In this document: piece by piece, positions 44,060-52,594 of the stretch | Layout of the letters: each line of letters opens with the position of its first letter | How positions within the stretch are numbered: the stretch's first letter is position 1 | From: Cyanosarcina radialis HA8281-LM2 | Lineage (GTDB): Bacteria; Cyanobacteriota; Cyanobacteriia; Cyanobacteriales; CCAP-1448 | Length of the DNA stretch: 64,000 bases | NCBI GenBank assembly: GCA_019359615.1 | Contig: JAHHHA010000012.1 | Location: forward strand, 1 to 64,000 | Reading direction: 5' to 3' | Notes under the pieces: generated by a model | Seen by the model: the letters and a program-made list of their open reading frames with translations, nothing else | The model's database searches: none | What the model was told of the DNA's origin: nothing | Position numbers and translations under genes: made by a program

Positions 44060-44347
44060 ATGTCGCCAATAACCCTAAATCAAAAGATTTCAGTTCCCGA
44101 AGACGTGCTGGTACAAGTGCTTGATGGGGAATCAGTGCTGCTGAACCTGCAAAACGAGCAGTATTATGGCTTGGATGATATCGGCACCAGAATGTGGGAA
44201 GTGCTGGCAGAAAGCCAATCGATCGAGGAAGCATATCGAGTATTATTAGCTGAATATCAGGTGGAACCAGAGCAGTTACGCCAAGATTTACAGGTCTTGC
44301 TCGAAAAATTGGTAGAACATGGGTTGGTCGAACTTAGTAATCCGTAA
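44060..44347 (+). CDS. Lasso peptide biosynthesis B1 protein (PqqD-like leader recognition)
   Basis: This 95-residue PqqD/RRE-fold protein (VLVQVLDGESVLLNLQNEQYYGLDDIGTRMWEVL...VLLEKLVEHGLVEL) binds the leader of a ribosomally made precursor peptide and presents it to the processing enzymes. It overlaps the B2 gene by 29 bases. Split B1/B2 proteins are typical of lasso clusters outside the microcin J25 group. It opens the cluster, which has no other gene in the 240 bases upstream. Confidence 0.92.
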   Translation: MSPITLNQKISVPEDVLVQVLDGESVLLNLQNEQYYGLDDIGTRMWEVLAESQSIEEAYRVLLAEYQVEPEQLRQDLQVLLEKLVEHGLVELSNP

Positions 44348-44846
44348 AGGATATAGCTTTTGGCAATTGCCGGGGAGCGATCGCCTATTATTGGTCCAAG
44401 CTTTGCTATTAATCCCCTTAGTAGCTATATCCCTCAAAGTTTTGGGATTTCAACGCACCCAAAGCCTTCTAACTCGCCTTGCCCCTCCATCGATCGCCGC
44501 TAGCCCAGATGTCGAGCGCTTTCCTCAAATTCGGACGACAGCCCGCATGGTGAAGATCGCCGTGCGGTATAACTCCCCGTGGAACAACTGCCTGAAACAG
44601 TCTTTGGTGCTGTGGTGGCTGTTGCGCCGCCAAGGAATCGATAGCGAATTGCGGATCGGTGTCAAACAAGCAGGGGGCAAGTTGGAAGCCCATGCTTGGG
44701 TAGAATACGACGGCCAGGTGTTGAACGATTCTTCAGACGTGCGATCGCGGTTTACCATGTTCGATCGAGCGATCGAGGTCATTAACAAGTCAAAAGTCAA
44801 CGCTTCGACAAGCTCAGCGTCCAGTCAAAAGTCAAAAGCTGTTTAA
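44319..44846 (+). CDS. Lasso peptide biosynthesis B2 protein (transglutaminase-like protease)
   Basis: This 175-residue enzyme cleaves the leader from the lasso precursor. The catalytic triad matches McjB: C91 (NNCLKQSLVLWWLLRRQGI), H125 (AHAWVEYDG) and D137 (12 residues after the His, as in McjB). An N-terminal hydrophobic segment at about 22-42 is usual. The last ~18 residues (from about 157) are encoded by small repeats (GTCAAAA and CGCTTCGACAAGCTCAGCG), so the C-terminal tail is probably a late addition. Confidence 0.92.
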   Translation: MGWSNLVIRKGYSFWQLPGSDRLLLVQALLLIPLVAISLKVLGFQRTQSLLTRLAPPSIAASPDVERFPQIRTTARMVKIAVRYNSPWNNCLKQSLVLWWLLRRQGIDSELRIGVKQAGGKLEAHAWVEYDGQVLNDSSDVRSRFTMFDRAIEVINKSKVNASTSSASSQKSKAV

Positions 44847-44920: not shown

Positions 44921-46909
44921 ATGAGTGGAATTGTCGGCATTATTAACTTAGACGGAAGACCTGTCGATCGCGAATTATTGGCGCGGTTGACCGCTTTTAT
45001 GACTTTTCGCGGCCCCGATGCCCAAAGCATTTGGATCGATGGCGATCGCGGCGCTAGTGGTTTGACCTCACCCCCAGCCGACCTCTCCCCCTTCGGCAAG
45101 CTCAGGGCAGCGCCCGGCCCCTCTCCTTGCACGAGAGGGGAGAGTCTTGTCCCCCCCTTCCCTTGCAGGGAAGGGGGGCTAGGGGGGTTAGGTCATATCG
45201 GCTTCGGTCATACCCTACTGGAAACAACTTTTGAATCGGCTTGGGAACATCAACCCTGTAGTCTAGATGGTGAGGTCTGGATTACTGCTGATGCCCGCAT
45301 AGACGGACGTGCCGACTTAATTGCCAAATTGTCGATCGCCGGGGATGCGTCAGAGAAAGTCACAGATGTAGAACTGATTCTCCATGCTTATCGGGTTTGG
45401 GGCGCAGACTGCGTAGAACATCTCATTGGAGATTTTGCTTTTGCGATTTGGGACGGACGCAAACAACAGTTATTTTGCGCCCGCGACCAACTTGGCATCA
45501 AGCAGTTTTACTACGCCCAAGTCGGCAATACTCTGTTATTTAGCAATACCCTAAACTGCTTGCGACTGCATCCAGCGGTGTCCGATCGACTCAACGATCG
45601 CGCCATCGCCGATTTTCTCTTATTTGACTACAATTACCACCTCGATACCACTTTTGCCGATATTAAGCGTTTGCCTGCGGGGCACACTCTCATCTATTCC
45701 GATGCCGGCGTGCGCTGTCAGCGTTACTGGACTTTACCCGTTAAAGAACCCATTCGCTACCAAAAGGCAGAAGACTATGTAGAAAACTTCAAAGAGATCT
45801 TCTCTTTGGCAGTAAGCGATCGCTTGCGTCAAGAAAAAGTTGCCATCTGGATGAGTGGCGGGCTAGATTCCACTAGTATTGCAGCTACAGCCCTAGAGTT
45901 AAAAGCGCAAAAATCTCTGCCTTTAGATCTGCAAGCTTTCTGCACCGTCTACGATCGCCTGATTCCCGATCGAGAACGCTATTACTCAGGCATAGCGGCT
46001 GAAGCTTTAGGCATTCCGATTCACTACACCGTAGGAGACGACTATCAACTCTTCGAGCGCTGGGATACACCAGAACTGCGTCGTCCCGAACCCACTCACA
46101 ATCCGATATTAGCTACTGCTGTCGATAAATCCCAGCAGGTAGCAGCCCACAGTCGGGTGGTGCTATACGGGCAAGGAGCAGATGAAGTCTTATATCCGTC
46201 TAAAATTGCGGACATCTGCAAAACTATGCCCTTCAACTACCTAATCGCCGATATCGGCGATTGTCTCTTTACCCATCGGATACGCCCTCCCATTGGAATT
46301 GGAGTGAAAGCGCTTTGGCAAAGATGGCTCGATCGGATGCGCCAAGAGACTAATTTACCTTTACTCCCAGCTTGGCTGAATGAATCCTTTGCCCAGCGGC
46401 TGAATTTACGCGAACGCTGGCAACAGATAATGGAAGACGAACCACCTTTAATTCATCCTTCTCATCCCAAAGGCTATGAAAGAGCGATCGCTCCAATCTG
46501 GGCATCGGTTTTTGAACGCTCAGATCCAGGCGTGACCGGGATGCCCCAGGAAGTAAGACTGCCATTTCTCGACCTGCGCTTAATCGATTACGTGCTGGCT
46601 ATTCCTCCCTGGCCTTGGTGCATCCAAAAAGAAATGTTACGAACAGCCATGGAGGGGAAGTTACCAGAAGTTATCTGCCGTCGTCCTAAGACTCCGTTGG
46701 CGGGCGATCCTGTCAGTGTCTTGCTATCTCAAAGCAGTAGTAAGTGGCAAGAATTAGCGGCTACTCCAGAATTATGCGAGTATGTGACGCTCGACTCAGC
46801 TTGGAGAGATGCGATCGCCTGTAAGGGTCGATCTTGGGCGGCTTGGTCGGCTTTGCGCCCCCACAGTCTCAATTACTGGTTAAAATCGGCTCGAAATCTT
46901 TCCTGTTAG
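44921..46909 (+). CDS. Lasso cyclase (asparagine synthase-like, C protein)
   Basis: This 662-residue enzyme activates an Asp or Glu side chain with ATP and joins it to the N-terminus of the core peptide. The N-terminal amidotransferase domain starts MSGIVGI, so the catalytic Cys2 of asparagine synthetase is Ser and no glutaminase is expected. The PPi loop is SGGLDST at 312-318. Residues 48-91 (Pro/Gly-rich, LTSPPADLSPFG...) are an in-frame repeat insert absent from normal members of the family. The context (B1, B2, precursor, exporter) argues for cyclase and against a housekeeping asparagine synthetase. Confidence 0.9.
   Translation: MSGIVGIINLDGRPVDRELLARLTAFMTFRGPDAQSIWIDGDRGASGLTSPPADLSPFGKLRAAPGPSPCTRGESLVPPFPCREGGLGGLGHIGFGHTLLETTFESAWEHQPCSLDGEVWITADARIDGRADLIAKLSIAGDASEKVTDVELILHAYRVWGADCVEHLIGDFAFAIWDGRKQQLFCARDQLGIKQFYYAQVGNTLLFSNTLNCLRLHPAVSDRLNDRAIADFLLFDYNYHLDTTFADIKRLPAGHTLIYSDAGVRCQRYWTLPVKEPIRYQKAEDYVENFKEIFSLAVSDRLRQEKVAIWMSGGLDSTSIAATALELKAQKSLPLDLQAFCTVYDRLIPDRERYYSGIAAEALGIPIHYTVGDDYQLFERWDTPELRRPEPTHNPILATAVDKSQQVAAHSRVVLYGQGADEVLYPSKIADICKTMPFNYLIADIGDCLFTHRIRPPIGIGVKALWQRWLDRMRQETNLPLLPAWLNESFAQRLNLRERWQQIMEDEPPLIHPSHPKGYERAIAPIWASVFERSDPGVTGMPQEVRLPFLDLRLIDYVLAIPPWPWCIQKEMLRTAMEGKLPEVICRRPKTPLAGDPVSVLLSQSSSKWQELAATPELCEYVTLDSAWRDAIACKGRSWAAWSALRPHSLNYWLKSARNLSC
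45062..45193. repeat. Mosaic repeat inserted in frame in the cyclase gene
   Basis: CCTCACCCCCAGCCGACCTC, CCCTTCGGCAAGCTCAGGG, CCCCTCTCC...GGAGAGG around TTGCACGA and CCTTCCCTTGCAGGGAAGG are stacked hairpin-forming units that occur between genes elsewhere in the window (23464, 29360, 63219). Here they encode residues 48-91 with no stop codon. Confidence 0.85.
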
Positions 46910-46983
46910 ATAAACTCGCTCTCTGCTGACATAATTCTATAAGTAAGCTATAATCCTGTAGTTGCTCTATGAGGAGTAGAATC

Positions 46984-47133
46984 ATGTCCGACAATATACC
47001 AAAGCCTACAAGCAAGCCATATCATGCGCCAAATTTTACCGTCTACGGTAGCGTTAGCGAACTCACTAATAACATAGGTGCGGCGGGTAAGGTTGCTGAT
47101 GGCGGCGTAGCACCTACCGACAAAACAGCTTAA
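46984..47133 (+). CDS. Lasso precursor peptide (49 aa)
   Basis: ATG 46984 follows GAGGAG by seven bases. The leader region YHAPNFTVYGSVSELT (residues 13-28) fits the lasso leader rule Y-x2-P-x-(L/F)-x3-G-x5-T recognised by B1 proteins, with Y13, P16, F18, G22 and T28. The segment NNIGAAGKVADGG and tail VAPTDKTA follow. If the core starts at G32, D39 is at position 8, a normal ring size; a cut right after T28-N29 would place D39 at position 10, which is unusual. The gene sits between the cyclase and the kinase genes. Its small size explains why it is easily missed. Confidence 0.85.
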   Translation: MSDNIPKPTSKPYHAPNFTVYGSVSELTNNIGAAGKVADGGVAPTDKTA

Positions 47134-47594: not shown

Positions 47595-48590
47595 ATGTCA
47601 TTTACTTATTCAGTTTTTGGGTTAAGGCTAGATTCTAACTGCGCCATTCCAGGATTAGTCGGGTTAGCAACTACAACTAGCCCAGAGGTAAAAGTTTGGT
47701 TCGATGTCGTTCCCCCGTGGCTGGAAAAACTGCTGAACGCACCCCAGGAAAGCTGGTATGATAGCCCATTCCGAGGGGAGTATGGCGAACCGCTCCTGCG
47801 AACTTGGAAACTAGCTGACGATCGGCACTTGCGACTGTTGTATCGCGATGGTACTCAATTCGTCGTCGATCTACAAGGTACTGAAATTTGGGCTACTTGG
47901 CCGGATAATCTCACCTTAGAAGATACTGCCACTTATCTTCTGGGCCCGGTTTTAGGATTTGTGTTGCGCTTGCGGGGAGTGACGTGCTTGCACGCCAGCG
48001 CGGTGGTAGTAGAAAATCGGGCGATCGCTTTATTAGGCGTGGCTGGTGCGGGGAAATCTACGACAGCGGCGGCTTTTGCCAAAATGGGCGATCCGGTACT
48101 ATCTGACGATGTAGTGGCGCTAGTAGATGAAGGCAATAGCTTTCTCGTACAGCCTGCTTACCCTCGTATCCGCCTGTGGTCGAAGTCAGTAGATACTCTG
48201 TATAATGCCCCAGATGCCCTACCTCGCATCGTTCCGACTCATCCAACTTGGGATAAGCGCTATCTCGATTTAACTCAAAAAGGATATTATTTCCAACAGC
48301 AGCCTCTACCCCTAGCTGCGATTTACGTTTTGTCAGAACGGTGCGATCGCCCAGATGCACCTTTAGTAGAGCAGATGACAGCCCATACTAAGTTAATGAC
48401 TTTAGTAGCTAACACTTACACCAACTATTTATTAGATAAATCTAGGCGGGCGCAGGAATTTGAGGTCTTGCAACGGCTTTTGCTTCGCGTTCCCATTCAA
48501 CGGCTGATTCCTCATAGCGATCCAGTTTATTTACCCAAGCTTTGCGAGACAATTATTACCGATTTTCAGAGTTTGAATTTTTGTTATTAG
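47595..48590 (+). CDS. HPr-kinase-like protein of the lasso cluster
   Basis: In this 331-residue protein the C-terminal half is a HprK/P-like P-loop kinase fold: LHASAVVVENRAIALLG, then G148-V-A-G-A-G-K-S-T156, and the acidic DDVVAL. The N-terminal half is less conserved. Similar kinases in Bacillus/Paenibacillus lasso clusters phosphorylate a residue at the C-terminus of the peptide. Here the precursor ends TDKTA, so T45 or T48 would be the candidates; this is inference. I chose ATG 47595 over a TTG at 47553. It is 11 bases from the methyltransferase gene. Confidence 0.87.
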   Translation: MSFTYSVFGLRLDSNCAIPGLVGLATTTSPEVKVWFDVVPPWLEKLLNAPQESWYDSPFRGEYGEPLLRTWKLADDRHLRLLYRDGTQFVVDLQGTEIWATWPDNLTLEDTATYLLGPVLGFVLRLRGVTCLHASAVVVENRAIALLGVAGAGKSTTAAAFAKMGDPVLSDDVVALVDEGNSFLVQPAYPRIRLWSKSVDTLYNAPDALPRIVPTHPTWDKRYLDLTQKGYYFQQQPLPLAAIYVLSERCDRPDAPLVEQMTAHTKLMTLVANTYTNYLLDKSRRAQEFEVLQRLLLRVPIQRLIPHSDPVYLPKLCETIITDFQSLNFCY

Positions 48591-49582: not shown

Positions 49583-51382
49583 TTGAAACATCGAGTCCAG
49601 ATCTGGCAAAATTTGCGACGGGCGATAGAATTAGTCTGGCGCAGCGCCCCTGGGTGGACTGTTATCAGTTTGCTGCTGTTGATAGTTCAAGGTTTTTTGC
49701 CTCTGGTATCTCTCTATCTGATGAAACTGCTAGTCGATGGCGTGACAGCCGGGATAGCAGCCACCGACAAAGCCGCAGCTTTCAGAGAGGTATTTTGGCT
49801 GGTGATTATAGCTGGAGGAGTTACCTTATTAGGCGATTTATGTCGCGCTTGGGCGACATTTGCTAGCACCGCTCAATCGGAACTAGTGAAAGATTACGTT
49901 CACGATCTACTACACGCCAAGTCAATTGAAGTCGATCTTGAATATTACGAAAACGCCCAATATTACAACTCCCTGCACCTCGCTCAACAAGAAGCCTCCT
50001 ATCGTCCTCCCCAAATTCTTTTGAGTTTGGTGCAAGTGGCGCAAAACGGAATTTCCTTGTTAGCCATAGCGGGACTACTGTTTGCACTTCACTGGGCGAT
50101 TGCTTCGATCTTATTTGTGGCTGTAATTCCTGGGTTGTTAGCGCGACTGAAATATACGGGTAAATTCTTCCACCGTCAAAGAGGTTGGACTCACAAAGAG
50201 CGCATTGCTTATTACTTTCATGGGTTGCTAACCCACGACACTTATGCCAAAGAATTGCGATTGTTTGACTTAGGTTCGCTATTTCGATCGCGGTTTCAAA
50301 ATTTACGCGGGCAAATCCGCCAAGAAAAACTCTCTTTAGCCAAGCAACGTTCGATTACCGAGTTAATCGGTCAAGCTAGCGGTACGATCGCGGTATTTGT
50401 CGCTTGTGGGTTTATTTCTTTCCAAACCTTGGCAGGAGCCATCACCTTGGGAGGGTTGGTAATGTATTATCAAGCCTTTCAACGCGGCCAGGGATTTTTG
50501 CGAGAACTGCTGCTGAATGTGGTGACTCTGTATGAAAATAGCTTATTTCTGTCTAATCTCTACGAATTTCTGGATTTAGAACCTGCCGTTCCCGAACCTT
50601 TACACCCTCAAGCCGTTCCCCAACCTGTAAAATTTGGCATTGAGTTCCACCAAGTCGAGTTTCGCTACCCCAAGAGCGAACGGGAACTGCTCTCAGACAT
50701 CAACTTGACGATTAAAGCTGGCGAAACTGTCGCTTTAGTAGGGGAAAATGGGGCAGGAAAAACCACTTTGATCAAACTTTTGTGTCGGCTTTACGACCCT
50801 TCTAGCGGCAAAATTACTATAGATGGCATCGATCTACGCCACTTCAAGACTACAGACTGGCGGCGAGAAATTAGCGTCGTCTTTCAAGATTACGTGCGCT
50901 ACAATCTGACAGCGCAGGAGAATATTGGTTTGGGCAATCTTGAGATGTTGACCGATCGCGATCGCATTATAGCCGCAGCCGAACAAGCTGGAGCCGATCG
51001 AGCGATTTCCAAGCTTCCCTACCGCTATGACACCACTTTGGGGAAGCAGTTTGAACAGGGTGAAGAACTAAGCATCGGGGAATGGCAAAAGGTAGCTATA
51101 GCCAGAGCCTTTTTACGCCAAGCTCAAATTATTATCTTAGACGAGCCAACTAGTGCTTTAGATGCCAAATCTGAATACGAAGTGTTCGATCGATTTCGTC
51201 AACTGACGCAAGGGCGAACTGCAATTTTAATTAGCCATCGGCTGTCAACAGTCAGGTTAGCCGATCGCATTTTGGTGTTAAAAAATGGCAAGATCGTTGA
51301 AAATGGCTCTCACGATGAACTATTAAAGCAAGGTGGTACTTATGCTCGCTTATTTAAAATTCAGGCTCAATATTACGAATGA
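49583..51382 (+). CDS. ABC exporter, fused permease-ATPase (lasso D protein)
   Basis: This 599-residue half-transporter has six membrane helices (about 20-300), then an ATPase with Walker A GENGAGKTT, signature LSIGEWQ and Walker B IIILDEPTSALD. McjD-type exporters have this layout and confer export and self-protection. The start is TTG 49583 with AAGGTG ahead; I found no ATG nearby in frame. It is in a tight row with the kinase and methyltransferase genes. Confidence 0.92.
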   Translation: MKHRVQIWQNLRRAIELVWRSAPGWTVISLLLLIVQGFLPLVSLYLMKLLVDGVTAGIAATDKAAAFREVFWLVIIAGGVTLLGDLCRAWATFASTAQSELVKDYVHDLLHAKSIEVDLEYYENAQYYNSLHLAQQEASYRPPQILLSLVQVAQNGISLLAIAGLLFALHWAIASILFVAVIPGLLARLKYTGKFFHRQRGWTHKERIAYYFHGLLTHDTYAKELRLFDLGSLFRSRFQNLRGQIRQEKLSLAKQRSITELIGQASGTIAVFVACGFISFQTLAGAITLGGLVMYYQAFQRGQGFLRELLLNVVTLYENSLFLSNLYEFLDLEPAVPEPLHPQAVPQPVKFGIEFHQVEFRYPKSERELLSDINLTIKAGETVALVGENGAGKTTLIKLLCRLYDPSSGKITIDGIDLRHFKTTDWRREISVVFQDYVRYNLTAQENIGLGNLEMLTDRDRIIAAAEQAGADRAISKLPYRYDTTLGKQFEQGEELSIGEWQKVAIARAFLRQAQIIILDEPTSALDAKSEYEVFDRFRQLTQGRTAILISHRLSTVRLADRILVLKNGKIVENGSHDELLKQGGTYARLFKIQAQYYE

Positions 51383-51417
51383 GGAGTTCAGAATGCAGGA
51401 GTTCAGGAGTTCAGAAT
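51383..51417. repeat. AGGAGTTCAG tandem repeat supplying the ribosome site of the next gene
   Basis: GAGGAGTTCAGAATGCAGGAG is followed by TTCAGGAGTTCAGA, directly against the ATG at 51416. The same AGGAGTTCAG unit occurs at 6999-7029, 30515 and 36045. Here it appears to provide the Shine-Dalgarno sequence. Confidence 0.7.
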
Positions 51418-52594
51418 GACTGAAATTGCCGCTGAGAAACATCAGCTAGAAATGGAATTGCTGCTGTGTTGCGCCCGCACTGAAATCGATCGTCAATGCC
51501 GCGATCGCATTCAGCATATAGCGCAGCAAAATATTGATTGGGATTACTTGTTAAAACTTACTGCATGGCATCAAGTTACTCCTTTGTTATTCTGGCAATT
51601 GCAAAACACTCGTGCAGAAATTATTCCTCAAAAGGTGCTAGAAGAACTTCGCAGTGCCTCTAAGGCTAATGCCAAGAGAAATTTTGGGCTGACTGGGGAA
51701 TTGCTAAATCTTCTCCGGCTTTTCGACAAAAATGCTATTCCGATAATGCCGTTTAAAGGACCGGCTCTAGCAGAAGTCGCTTACAAAAACTCAACGCTGA
51801 GAGAATTCTTGGATTTAGATATTTTAATTCCAGCAGAATTCGTTCCTCAAGCTAGGAAACTACTAATTTCTCAAGGATATGAACCTCAGTTCGATCTAGC
51901 AGATACTCAGGAATTGATTTATACTAAACTGCGTCACGAGCATATGTTTTGGCACGAAGGCAAACAAATTGCGCTCGACGTTCATTGGTCTTTATTTCCT
52001 TTAAACTTCTCTTTTTCTGACGATCAAAATCTCACCTGGAAACACCAAACTAAAATTCAATTGAGTGGCAAATCGGTTGAAACTCTATCGGCTGAGAGTT
52101 TACTTTTATTTCTTTGTTTTCACGGTTGCAAGCATAATTGGTCGCGGTTAAAGTCGATTTGCGACTTAGCCGAACTGATTCGCAGCCAACCAGAAATCGA
52201 TTGGAATTGGATTTTATCGGAAGCCCAGAGACTAGGAATCGAGCGGATGCTGCTGCTAGGTCTTTATTTATGCCAGCATCTGCTCGACACACCACTTCCA
52301 GATCTACTCGATCGACAAGTAGAATCTAATTTACCAATTAAATCTTTGGCATCTGAAGTAGAACGACTGCTTTTTATAGTGCCAGAGCGAGCCGATAGCT
52401 TGCCAAAAAACAATATTTACTTAAAAACTATGGAATCTGGCAAAGACAAAATTTGGTATTATTTCAATCTCATATTTACTCCCACCCCTTTGGAATGGCA
52501 AATAATTCCTCTGCCAAAGTGGTTATTTCCCCTGTATTATCTGATTCGACCGATTCGCCTGACAATTAAACACAGTCTAGGACATGAGTTATAG
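51416..52594 (+). CDS. Nucleotidyltransferase family protein (PF14907 type)
   Basis: This 392-residue protein has the core pattern MPFKGPALAEVAYKNSTLREFLDLDILIP, in which the LDLDI acidic pair would bind metal-nucleotide. It is followed by HEHMFWHEGKQIALDVHWSL and FLCFHGCKHNWSRLKSICDLAELI. This matches the uncharacterised nucleotidyltransferase family found beside lasso and other peptide clusters. Its reaction is not known. It is 33 bases from the exporter gene and overlaps the convergent flavoprotein gene by six bases. Confidence 0.85.
   Translation: MTEIAAEKHQLEMELLLCCARTEIDRQCRDRIQHIAQQNIDWDYLLKLTAWHQVTPLLFWQLQNTRAEIIPQKVLEELRSASKANAKRNFGLTGELLNLLRLFDKNAIPIMPFKGPALAEVAYKNSTLREFLDLDILIPAEFVPQARKLLISQGYEPQFDLADTQELIYTKLRHEHMFWHEGKQIALDVHWSLFPLNFSFSDDQNLTWKHQTKIQLSGKSVETLSAESLLLFLCFHGCKHNWSRLKSICDLAELIRSQPEIDWNWILSEAQRLGIERMLLLGLYLCQHLLDTPLPDLLDRQVESNLPIKSLASEVERLLFIVPERADSLPKNNIYLKTMESGKDKIWYYFNLIFTPTPLEWQIIPLPKWLFPLYYLIRPIRLTIKHSLGHEL

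Follow-up and report, generated by a model that had tools for sequence, protein, structure and literature searches.

RESULTS

Gene content of the locus

The window analyzed here, the whole 64,000-nucleotide stretch of Cyanosarcina radialis HA8281-LM2, carries a cluster whose genes all lie on the plus strand in the order B1, B2, C, precursor, HprK kinase, PRMT-like methyltransferase, ABC exporter, and nucleotidyltransferase (Table 1). The cluster is intact and of the lasso type, and its product is predicted to be a ring-expanded variant. Dedicated B1, B2, and C genes stand directly upstream of the precursor gene, and the NCBIfam and Pfam matches bear out this neighborhood as it had been read in a preliminary description of the precursor.

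Table 1. Features of the lasso-type cluster, with positions counted from the first nucleotide of the window
Feature	Position	Strand	Basis
B1, PqqD-type leader-binding protein (RRE)	44060..44347	+	Pfam PqqD, 1.6e-16
B2, leader peptidase	44319..44846	+	NCBIfam lasso_biosyn_B2, 100.5 bits, cut-off of 33 passed
C, lasso cyclase, asparagine synthetase fold	44921..46909	+	NCBIfam lass_lactam_cya, 1.1e-107, under its cut-off
In-frame insert of ~50 residues in C, interspersed repeat	45044..45193	+	Missing in 13 aligned relatives
Promoter-like CTGACA-17-TATAAT before the precursor	46926..46954	+	Consensus match only, 11/12 bases
Precursor gene, 49-residue ORF, MSDNIPKPTSKPYHAPNFTVYGSVSELTNNIGAAGKVADGGVAPTDKTA	46984..47133	+	ORF, motif, and NCBIfam
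Leader M1-N29 (Y13 = -17, P16 = -14, F18 = -12, T28 = -2)	46984..47070	+	
Predicted ten-residue ring N30-D39 (NIGAAGKVAD)	47071..47100	+	Register test and relatives
Tail GGVAPTDKTA with conserved K47-T48	47101..47130	+	[KR][TS] in 28/30 relatives with the same kinase type
HprK-type kinase	47598..48590	+	H132, G147, G150, G152, K153, S154, D170, and D171 kept
PRMT-fold methyltransferase without the double-Glu loop	48602..49573	+	
ABC exporter	49583..51382	+	
Nucleotidyltransferase NTP_transf_5	51416..52594	+	Pfam, 4e-71

B1 scored 66 bits against the NCBIfam model lasso_PqqD_Bac, under its cut-off of 80. The Cys-His-Asp triad of B2 (Cys91, His125, and Asp137) is invariant among 10 aligned sequences, and C keeps the ATP-binding motif S-G-G-x-D-S as SGGLDS, with Ser in place of the glutaminase Cys2. 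The folds matched by an AlphaFold model of C were those of asparagine synthetase and beta-lactam synthetase. The adjacent HprK-type kinase has the full H-G-G-G-K-S-DD motif given for BsfK, a proven lasso kinase (PMC10368454). The nucleotidyltransferase gave no sequence match to solved structures. The methyltransferase matches PRMT2 (6.6e-28) across most of its length, but the double-Glu loop, SEWMG...FE in PRMT2, reads SDLRG...FQ in the window protein, and its relatives carry S/A/C-D-[LIV]-RG there. Since both loop Glu residues are missing and the core has no Arg, Arg methylation is unlikely. The window protein lacks a C-terminal extension of some 60 residues that 12 aligned relatives of the methyltransferase carry and that matches no Pfam family.

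The shortened methyltransferase and the repeat insert in C could mean that the cluster is decaying in this strain and inactive, all the more as the insert, whose repeat has 42 further partial matches elsewhere in the genome, is unique among the 14 aligned cyclases. However, the insert is in frame and is modeled as a loose, low-confidence loop joining two confident strands, and all ORFs are intact, as are the B2 triad and the precursor. We therefore regard decay as quite improbable, although activity in the C. radialis strain, with its C insert and shorter methyltransferase, is not assured.

The precursor gene is real. An AGGAG at positions 46972 to 46976 lies 7 nt 5' of its ATG, and a second in-frame ATG is found at 46969, 15 nt 5' of 46984; the start at 46984 is preferred because the AGGAG stands between the two. 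The promoter-like sequence is weak, with 2 such sites found versus 1.4 expected, no terminator was detected 3' of the precursor, and an Rfam search of the cluster gave no matches. A single copy of the strict 16-residue leader motif is found in the 64-kb window, versus 0.03 expected from triplet-block shuffles. The leader had been read correctly in the preliminary description, as a canonical lasso leader. The precursor scored below the cut-offs of two NCBIfam models, with 22.8 bits (E of 6.7e-5) for lasso_cyano NF033528, where 33 is needed, and 16.3 bits for lasso_leader_L3, where 19 is needed. The rest of the genome held one weak second precursor match (E of 1.45).

Core start and ring register

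In published precursors, the YxxPxL motif occupies positions -17 to -12, and Thr has been the penultimate leader residue in all those previously reported (PMC10368454). The window leader agrees on both counts, the last motif residue being Phe18 and not Leu, and with Y13 at -17 and T28 at -2, these rules predict cleavage after N29 and N30 as residue 1. The preliminary description had numbered Thr28 correctly, and it had rightly counted D39 as position 10, 9, or 8 from starts at N30, I31, or G32, respectively. Its three candidate starts were well chosen, but the ambiguity that it saw among them is largely removed by the comparison with homologues that it had proposed, as the Tyr and the Thr both give N30. 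Counted from N30, D39 at position 10 is the sole Asp or Glu within ring range in the core (N30-A49), with none at positions 7 to 9, where a lasso acceptor is looked for.

Precursors were gathered next to lasso genes in cyanobacterial genomes and in metagenome-assembled genomes (MAGs) of Acidobacteriota and Gemmatimonadota. The span from the leader Tyr to the Thr was 16 residues in all 114 distinct cluster-linked precursors, with a search pattern that permitted 15 and 17 residues as well. With Thr as 0, the acceptor stood at +10 in 59 linked precursors, at +11 in 21, at +9 in 11, and at +12 in 7, where +10 and then +11 took precedence if one precursor had several acidic residues. Loss of the Asp or a clearly different precursor in close relatives had been named beforehand as evidence that would speak against the preliminary reading; neither was found, as all 30 precursors grouped with this kinase type keep their Asp within +9 to +12 of the Thr.

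Anchoring at the Thr or at the Asp gave very different results when Asp+10 and Asp+11 precursors were compared. In the group whose kinase is at least 43% identical to that of the window (14 versus 14), the mean alignment score was 0.1 when anchored at Thr and -3.9 when anchored at Asp (shuffle standard deviation of the difference, 0.63; P = 0.0005), and the corresponding values among the other relatives (45 versus 7) were -0.2 and -6.0 (standard deviation, 0.55; P = 0.0005), both P values being approximate since the sequences share kinship. Had leader cleavage tracked the Asp, the best alignment of Asp+10 with Asp+11 relatives would be expected from that residue; they align best from the Thr, and the extra residue would therefore lie inside the ring. 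If +2 is taken as the start, Asp+11 becomes core position 10. The comparison that shows this most clearly is with the acidobacterial precursor L172, T-HAVGQSGK-KDGGGGKIQKTA (T-HAVGQSGKKDGGGGKIQKTA), which has its Asp at +10 and runs in step with the T-NNIGAAGKVADGGVAPTDKTA of the window, where the Asp is at +11, from the Thr through G(+4), G(+7), and K(+8). Within NF033528, too, the Asp moves from +10 in L152 (T-QLFGKADKNDFLFF) to +11 in L032 (T-QMFGNSKTRNDFLFF), and each of these precursors lies far above the cut-off of that model when scored from a hand-set leader start.

Gly is the most frequent first residue in known lasso peptides, which would favor a core that begins at G32, with an eight-residue ring and the Thr at -4. 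However, G32 matches a Gly at +4 that many relatives share (36/45 in the Asp+10 set that lies outside the kinase-type group) and therefore acts as part of the ring, not as a start, and siamycin and other known nine-residue rings have Gly at position 3. This start also violates both leader rules, and we consider it highly improbable. Alternatively, a B2 cut shifted by one residue, after N30, would put the Thr at -3 and close an ordinary nine-residue ring from I31 to D39. Nine-residue rings are known while natural ten-residue ones are not (PMC13352647), and +3 is Ser, a plausible residue 1, in 9 of the 14 Asp+11 members of the kinase-type group. The others at this position include Ile, Phe, and Leu, though, so that the shifted cut would need Ile1 here, Leu1 in L075, Phe1 in L068 and L009, and Lys1 in L181. 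At +2, by contrast, all 14 Asp+11 members of the group have a small residue (Asn, Ala, Ser, or Thr). The fixed Tyr-Thr span, the published rule of Thr at -2 (PMC10368454), and the alignment of Asp+10 and Asp+11 relatives from the Thr likewise argue against it, and we find the shifted cut unlikely. Both starts were thus judged less likely than N30 on the leader rules and the register of the relatives, and position 10 is the best reading for D39, over 8 or 9.

Recurrence of Asp+11 among relatives

Several cyanobacterial families have Asp+11, and so do Gemmatimonadota (L176 and L181). The Asp+11 label required seven changes on a tree built from 31 C proteins, at least six of them forced by well-supported branches, and the cyclases of L069 (Asp+10) and L076 (Asp+11) are sisters (support of 100/99). 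In Nostocales L067, three precursors (+10, +11, and +10) lie next to a single detected cyclase. The occurrence of related clusters in several bacterial groups suggests that the ten-residue ring arose repeatedly. We put it at slightly better than even that ten-residue-ring lasso-type peptides are a natural recurrent class in Cyanobacteria and Gemmatimonadota, in which nine- and ten-residue rings would interconvert through single-residue insertions beside the acceptor Asp, and in which closely related cyclases, perhaps a single one in L067, would accept both.

L067 offers a natural setting in which to see whether one enzyme makes rings of two sizes. L176 was set aside as proof of this kind, since its Asp+10 and Asp+11 precursors come with two cyclase matches. 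We do not claim a link between the methyltransferase and Asp+11, as the independent pairs were too few (4 on starred branches; median P of 1). In L063, L066, and L116, an Asp at +12 from the Thr would give eleven-residue rings if the start is fixed, and L116 also has an Asp at +9. The kinases of L172 to L177 and L179, from MAGs of Acidobacteriota and Gemmatimonadota, are 44 to 52% identical to that of the window, and their precursors are similar; the Nostocales kinases found fall below these, with about 37% identity or less. In L155, four precursors have lasso-type leaders, and a PVDVSSGMPP segment precedes their long (RGG)n tails.

Tail, stopper, and phosphorylation

A [KR][TS] pair within the last six residues was found in 28/30 precursors beside a window-type kinase versus 3/80 that adjoin a more distant kinase (Fisher's exact test, 1.7e-20, a value inflated by shared ancestry). 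This pair probably offers a Lys or Arg stopper together with a phosphorylation site. The core has no aromatic residue, as had been pointed out earlier, but the accompanying suggestion that the knot would have to be held differently from known lassos is weakened by the position of K47 in the conserved pair, Lys being the stopper in one state of benenodin-1, which has an eight-residue ring (PMC13352647).

PadeK and PsmK place a phosphate on a C-terminal Ser, to which PsmN adds a hexose (PMC9266682). The window peptide has no such paeninodin-type acceptor and ends in K-T-A with Thr as the penultimate residue. Because BsfK modifies Ser3 (PMC10368454), the phosphorylation site proposed here is only a prediction.

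It could also be that the peptide is cut and modified but stays unthreaded or uncyclized, as a branched-cyclic or linear phosphopeptide. The lack of an aromatic stopper would fit such a product, as would a group of Nostocales relatives whose leader, kinase, B1, and B2 are of the same type but in which no cyclase was detected and no acidic residue lies within ring range. The window, however, encodes a complete cyclase in which the ATP-binding motif is kept, and its precursor has an acceptor Asp that is conserved, which makes an unthreaded or uncyclized product rather unlikely. These relatives (L178, L180, and L230 to L233) combine a lasso-type leader (YSEPELKAHGKISGLT) with HprK, and with B1, B2, and ABC genes where the flanks reach; L178 also has one group-1 and two family-2 glycosyltransferases and one epimerase. 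The products of these clusters are possibly linear peptides, glycosylated or phosphorylated, that stem from lasso machinery.

DISCUSSION

The gene set with its catalytic motifs, the leader register, the conserved Asp, and the association of [KR][TS] with the kinase are seen in the sequences and are the basis of the scheme that we propose, in which cleavage, ring closure, threading, and all tailoring are predicted steps. The YHAPNF of the leader would be bound by B1, and B2 would remove the leader after N29. C would then activate the side chain of D39 and couple it to the N30 amino group, which would close the ten-residue ring N-I-G-A-A-G-K-V-A-D around the tail, where K47, near the C terminus, is the likeliest stopper. 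Thr48 of the [KR][TS] pair would probably be phosphorylated on the precursor by the adjacent HprK-type kinase, its phosphate may be extended by the nucleotidyltransferase, and the product would be exported by the ABC protein. We hold this scheme as a whole, from the cut after N29 to export, to be moderately probable. The points against it are the lack of a bulky aromatic stopper and the Ser at +3, a possible first residue, in 9 of the 14 Asp+11 relatives, and further the repeat insert in C and a methyltransferase shorter than its relatives.

The rings of structurally characterized natural lasso peptides have 7 to 9 residues, and a change of ring size by one residue usually cuts the yield in engineered systems (PMC13352647). 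According to the citation of DiCaprio 2019 in PMC8498205, an engineered fusilassin/fuscanodin analogue with ten residues in its ring was made in vitro with the fusilassin/fuscanodin enzymes, and by that account such a ring is chemically possible. In the open-license literature searched, we found no natural lasso ring of more than nine residues, and only the engineered fusilassin analogue was relevant; this absence is not proof that none is known. A natural ten-residue ring, if our reading is true, would show how far the ring-size tolerance of the cyclases extends, raise the question of how so wide a ring locks without an aromatic stopper, and provide natural enzymes for the engineering of ring-expanded lassos. 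Searches that demand an Asp or Glu at position 7 to 9 would miss or mis-cut precursors of this kind. The close pair of L069 (nine) and L076 (ten) makes the ring-size question directly testable.

With the class II lasso peptides, which have no disulfide (capistruin, caulosegnin II, and metanodin), the window shares the B1/B2/C logic, the Thr at -2, an Asp acceptor, and a Cys-free core, and metanodin, whose core also starts with Asn, is the one precedent for this residue at position 1 (PMC12670498). The window differs from them in having its Asp at core position 10 and not 9 and in its lack of an aromatic residue in the core. The engineered fusilassin/fuscanodin analogue, as cited, has the same ring size as predicted here but was made in vitro from an engineered substrate, whereas the substrate here is naturally encoded. 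Like the clusters of the phosphorylated lasso peptides paeninodin, pseudomycoidin, and BsfA, that of the window includes an HprK-type kinase, and it shares a nucleotidyltransferase gene with the pseudomycoidin and bsf clusters (PMC9266682, PMC10368454); the known phosphosites are a C-terminal Ser, or Ser3 in BsfA, while the predicted site here is the [KR]-[TS] near the C terminus. Compared with the lasso_cyano family NF033528, the window precursor has a different core and a score below the cut-off, but its leader pattern is the same, and the top scorer that we found in that family, L032, also has its Asp at +11.
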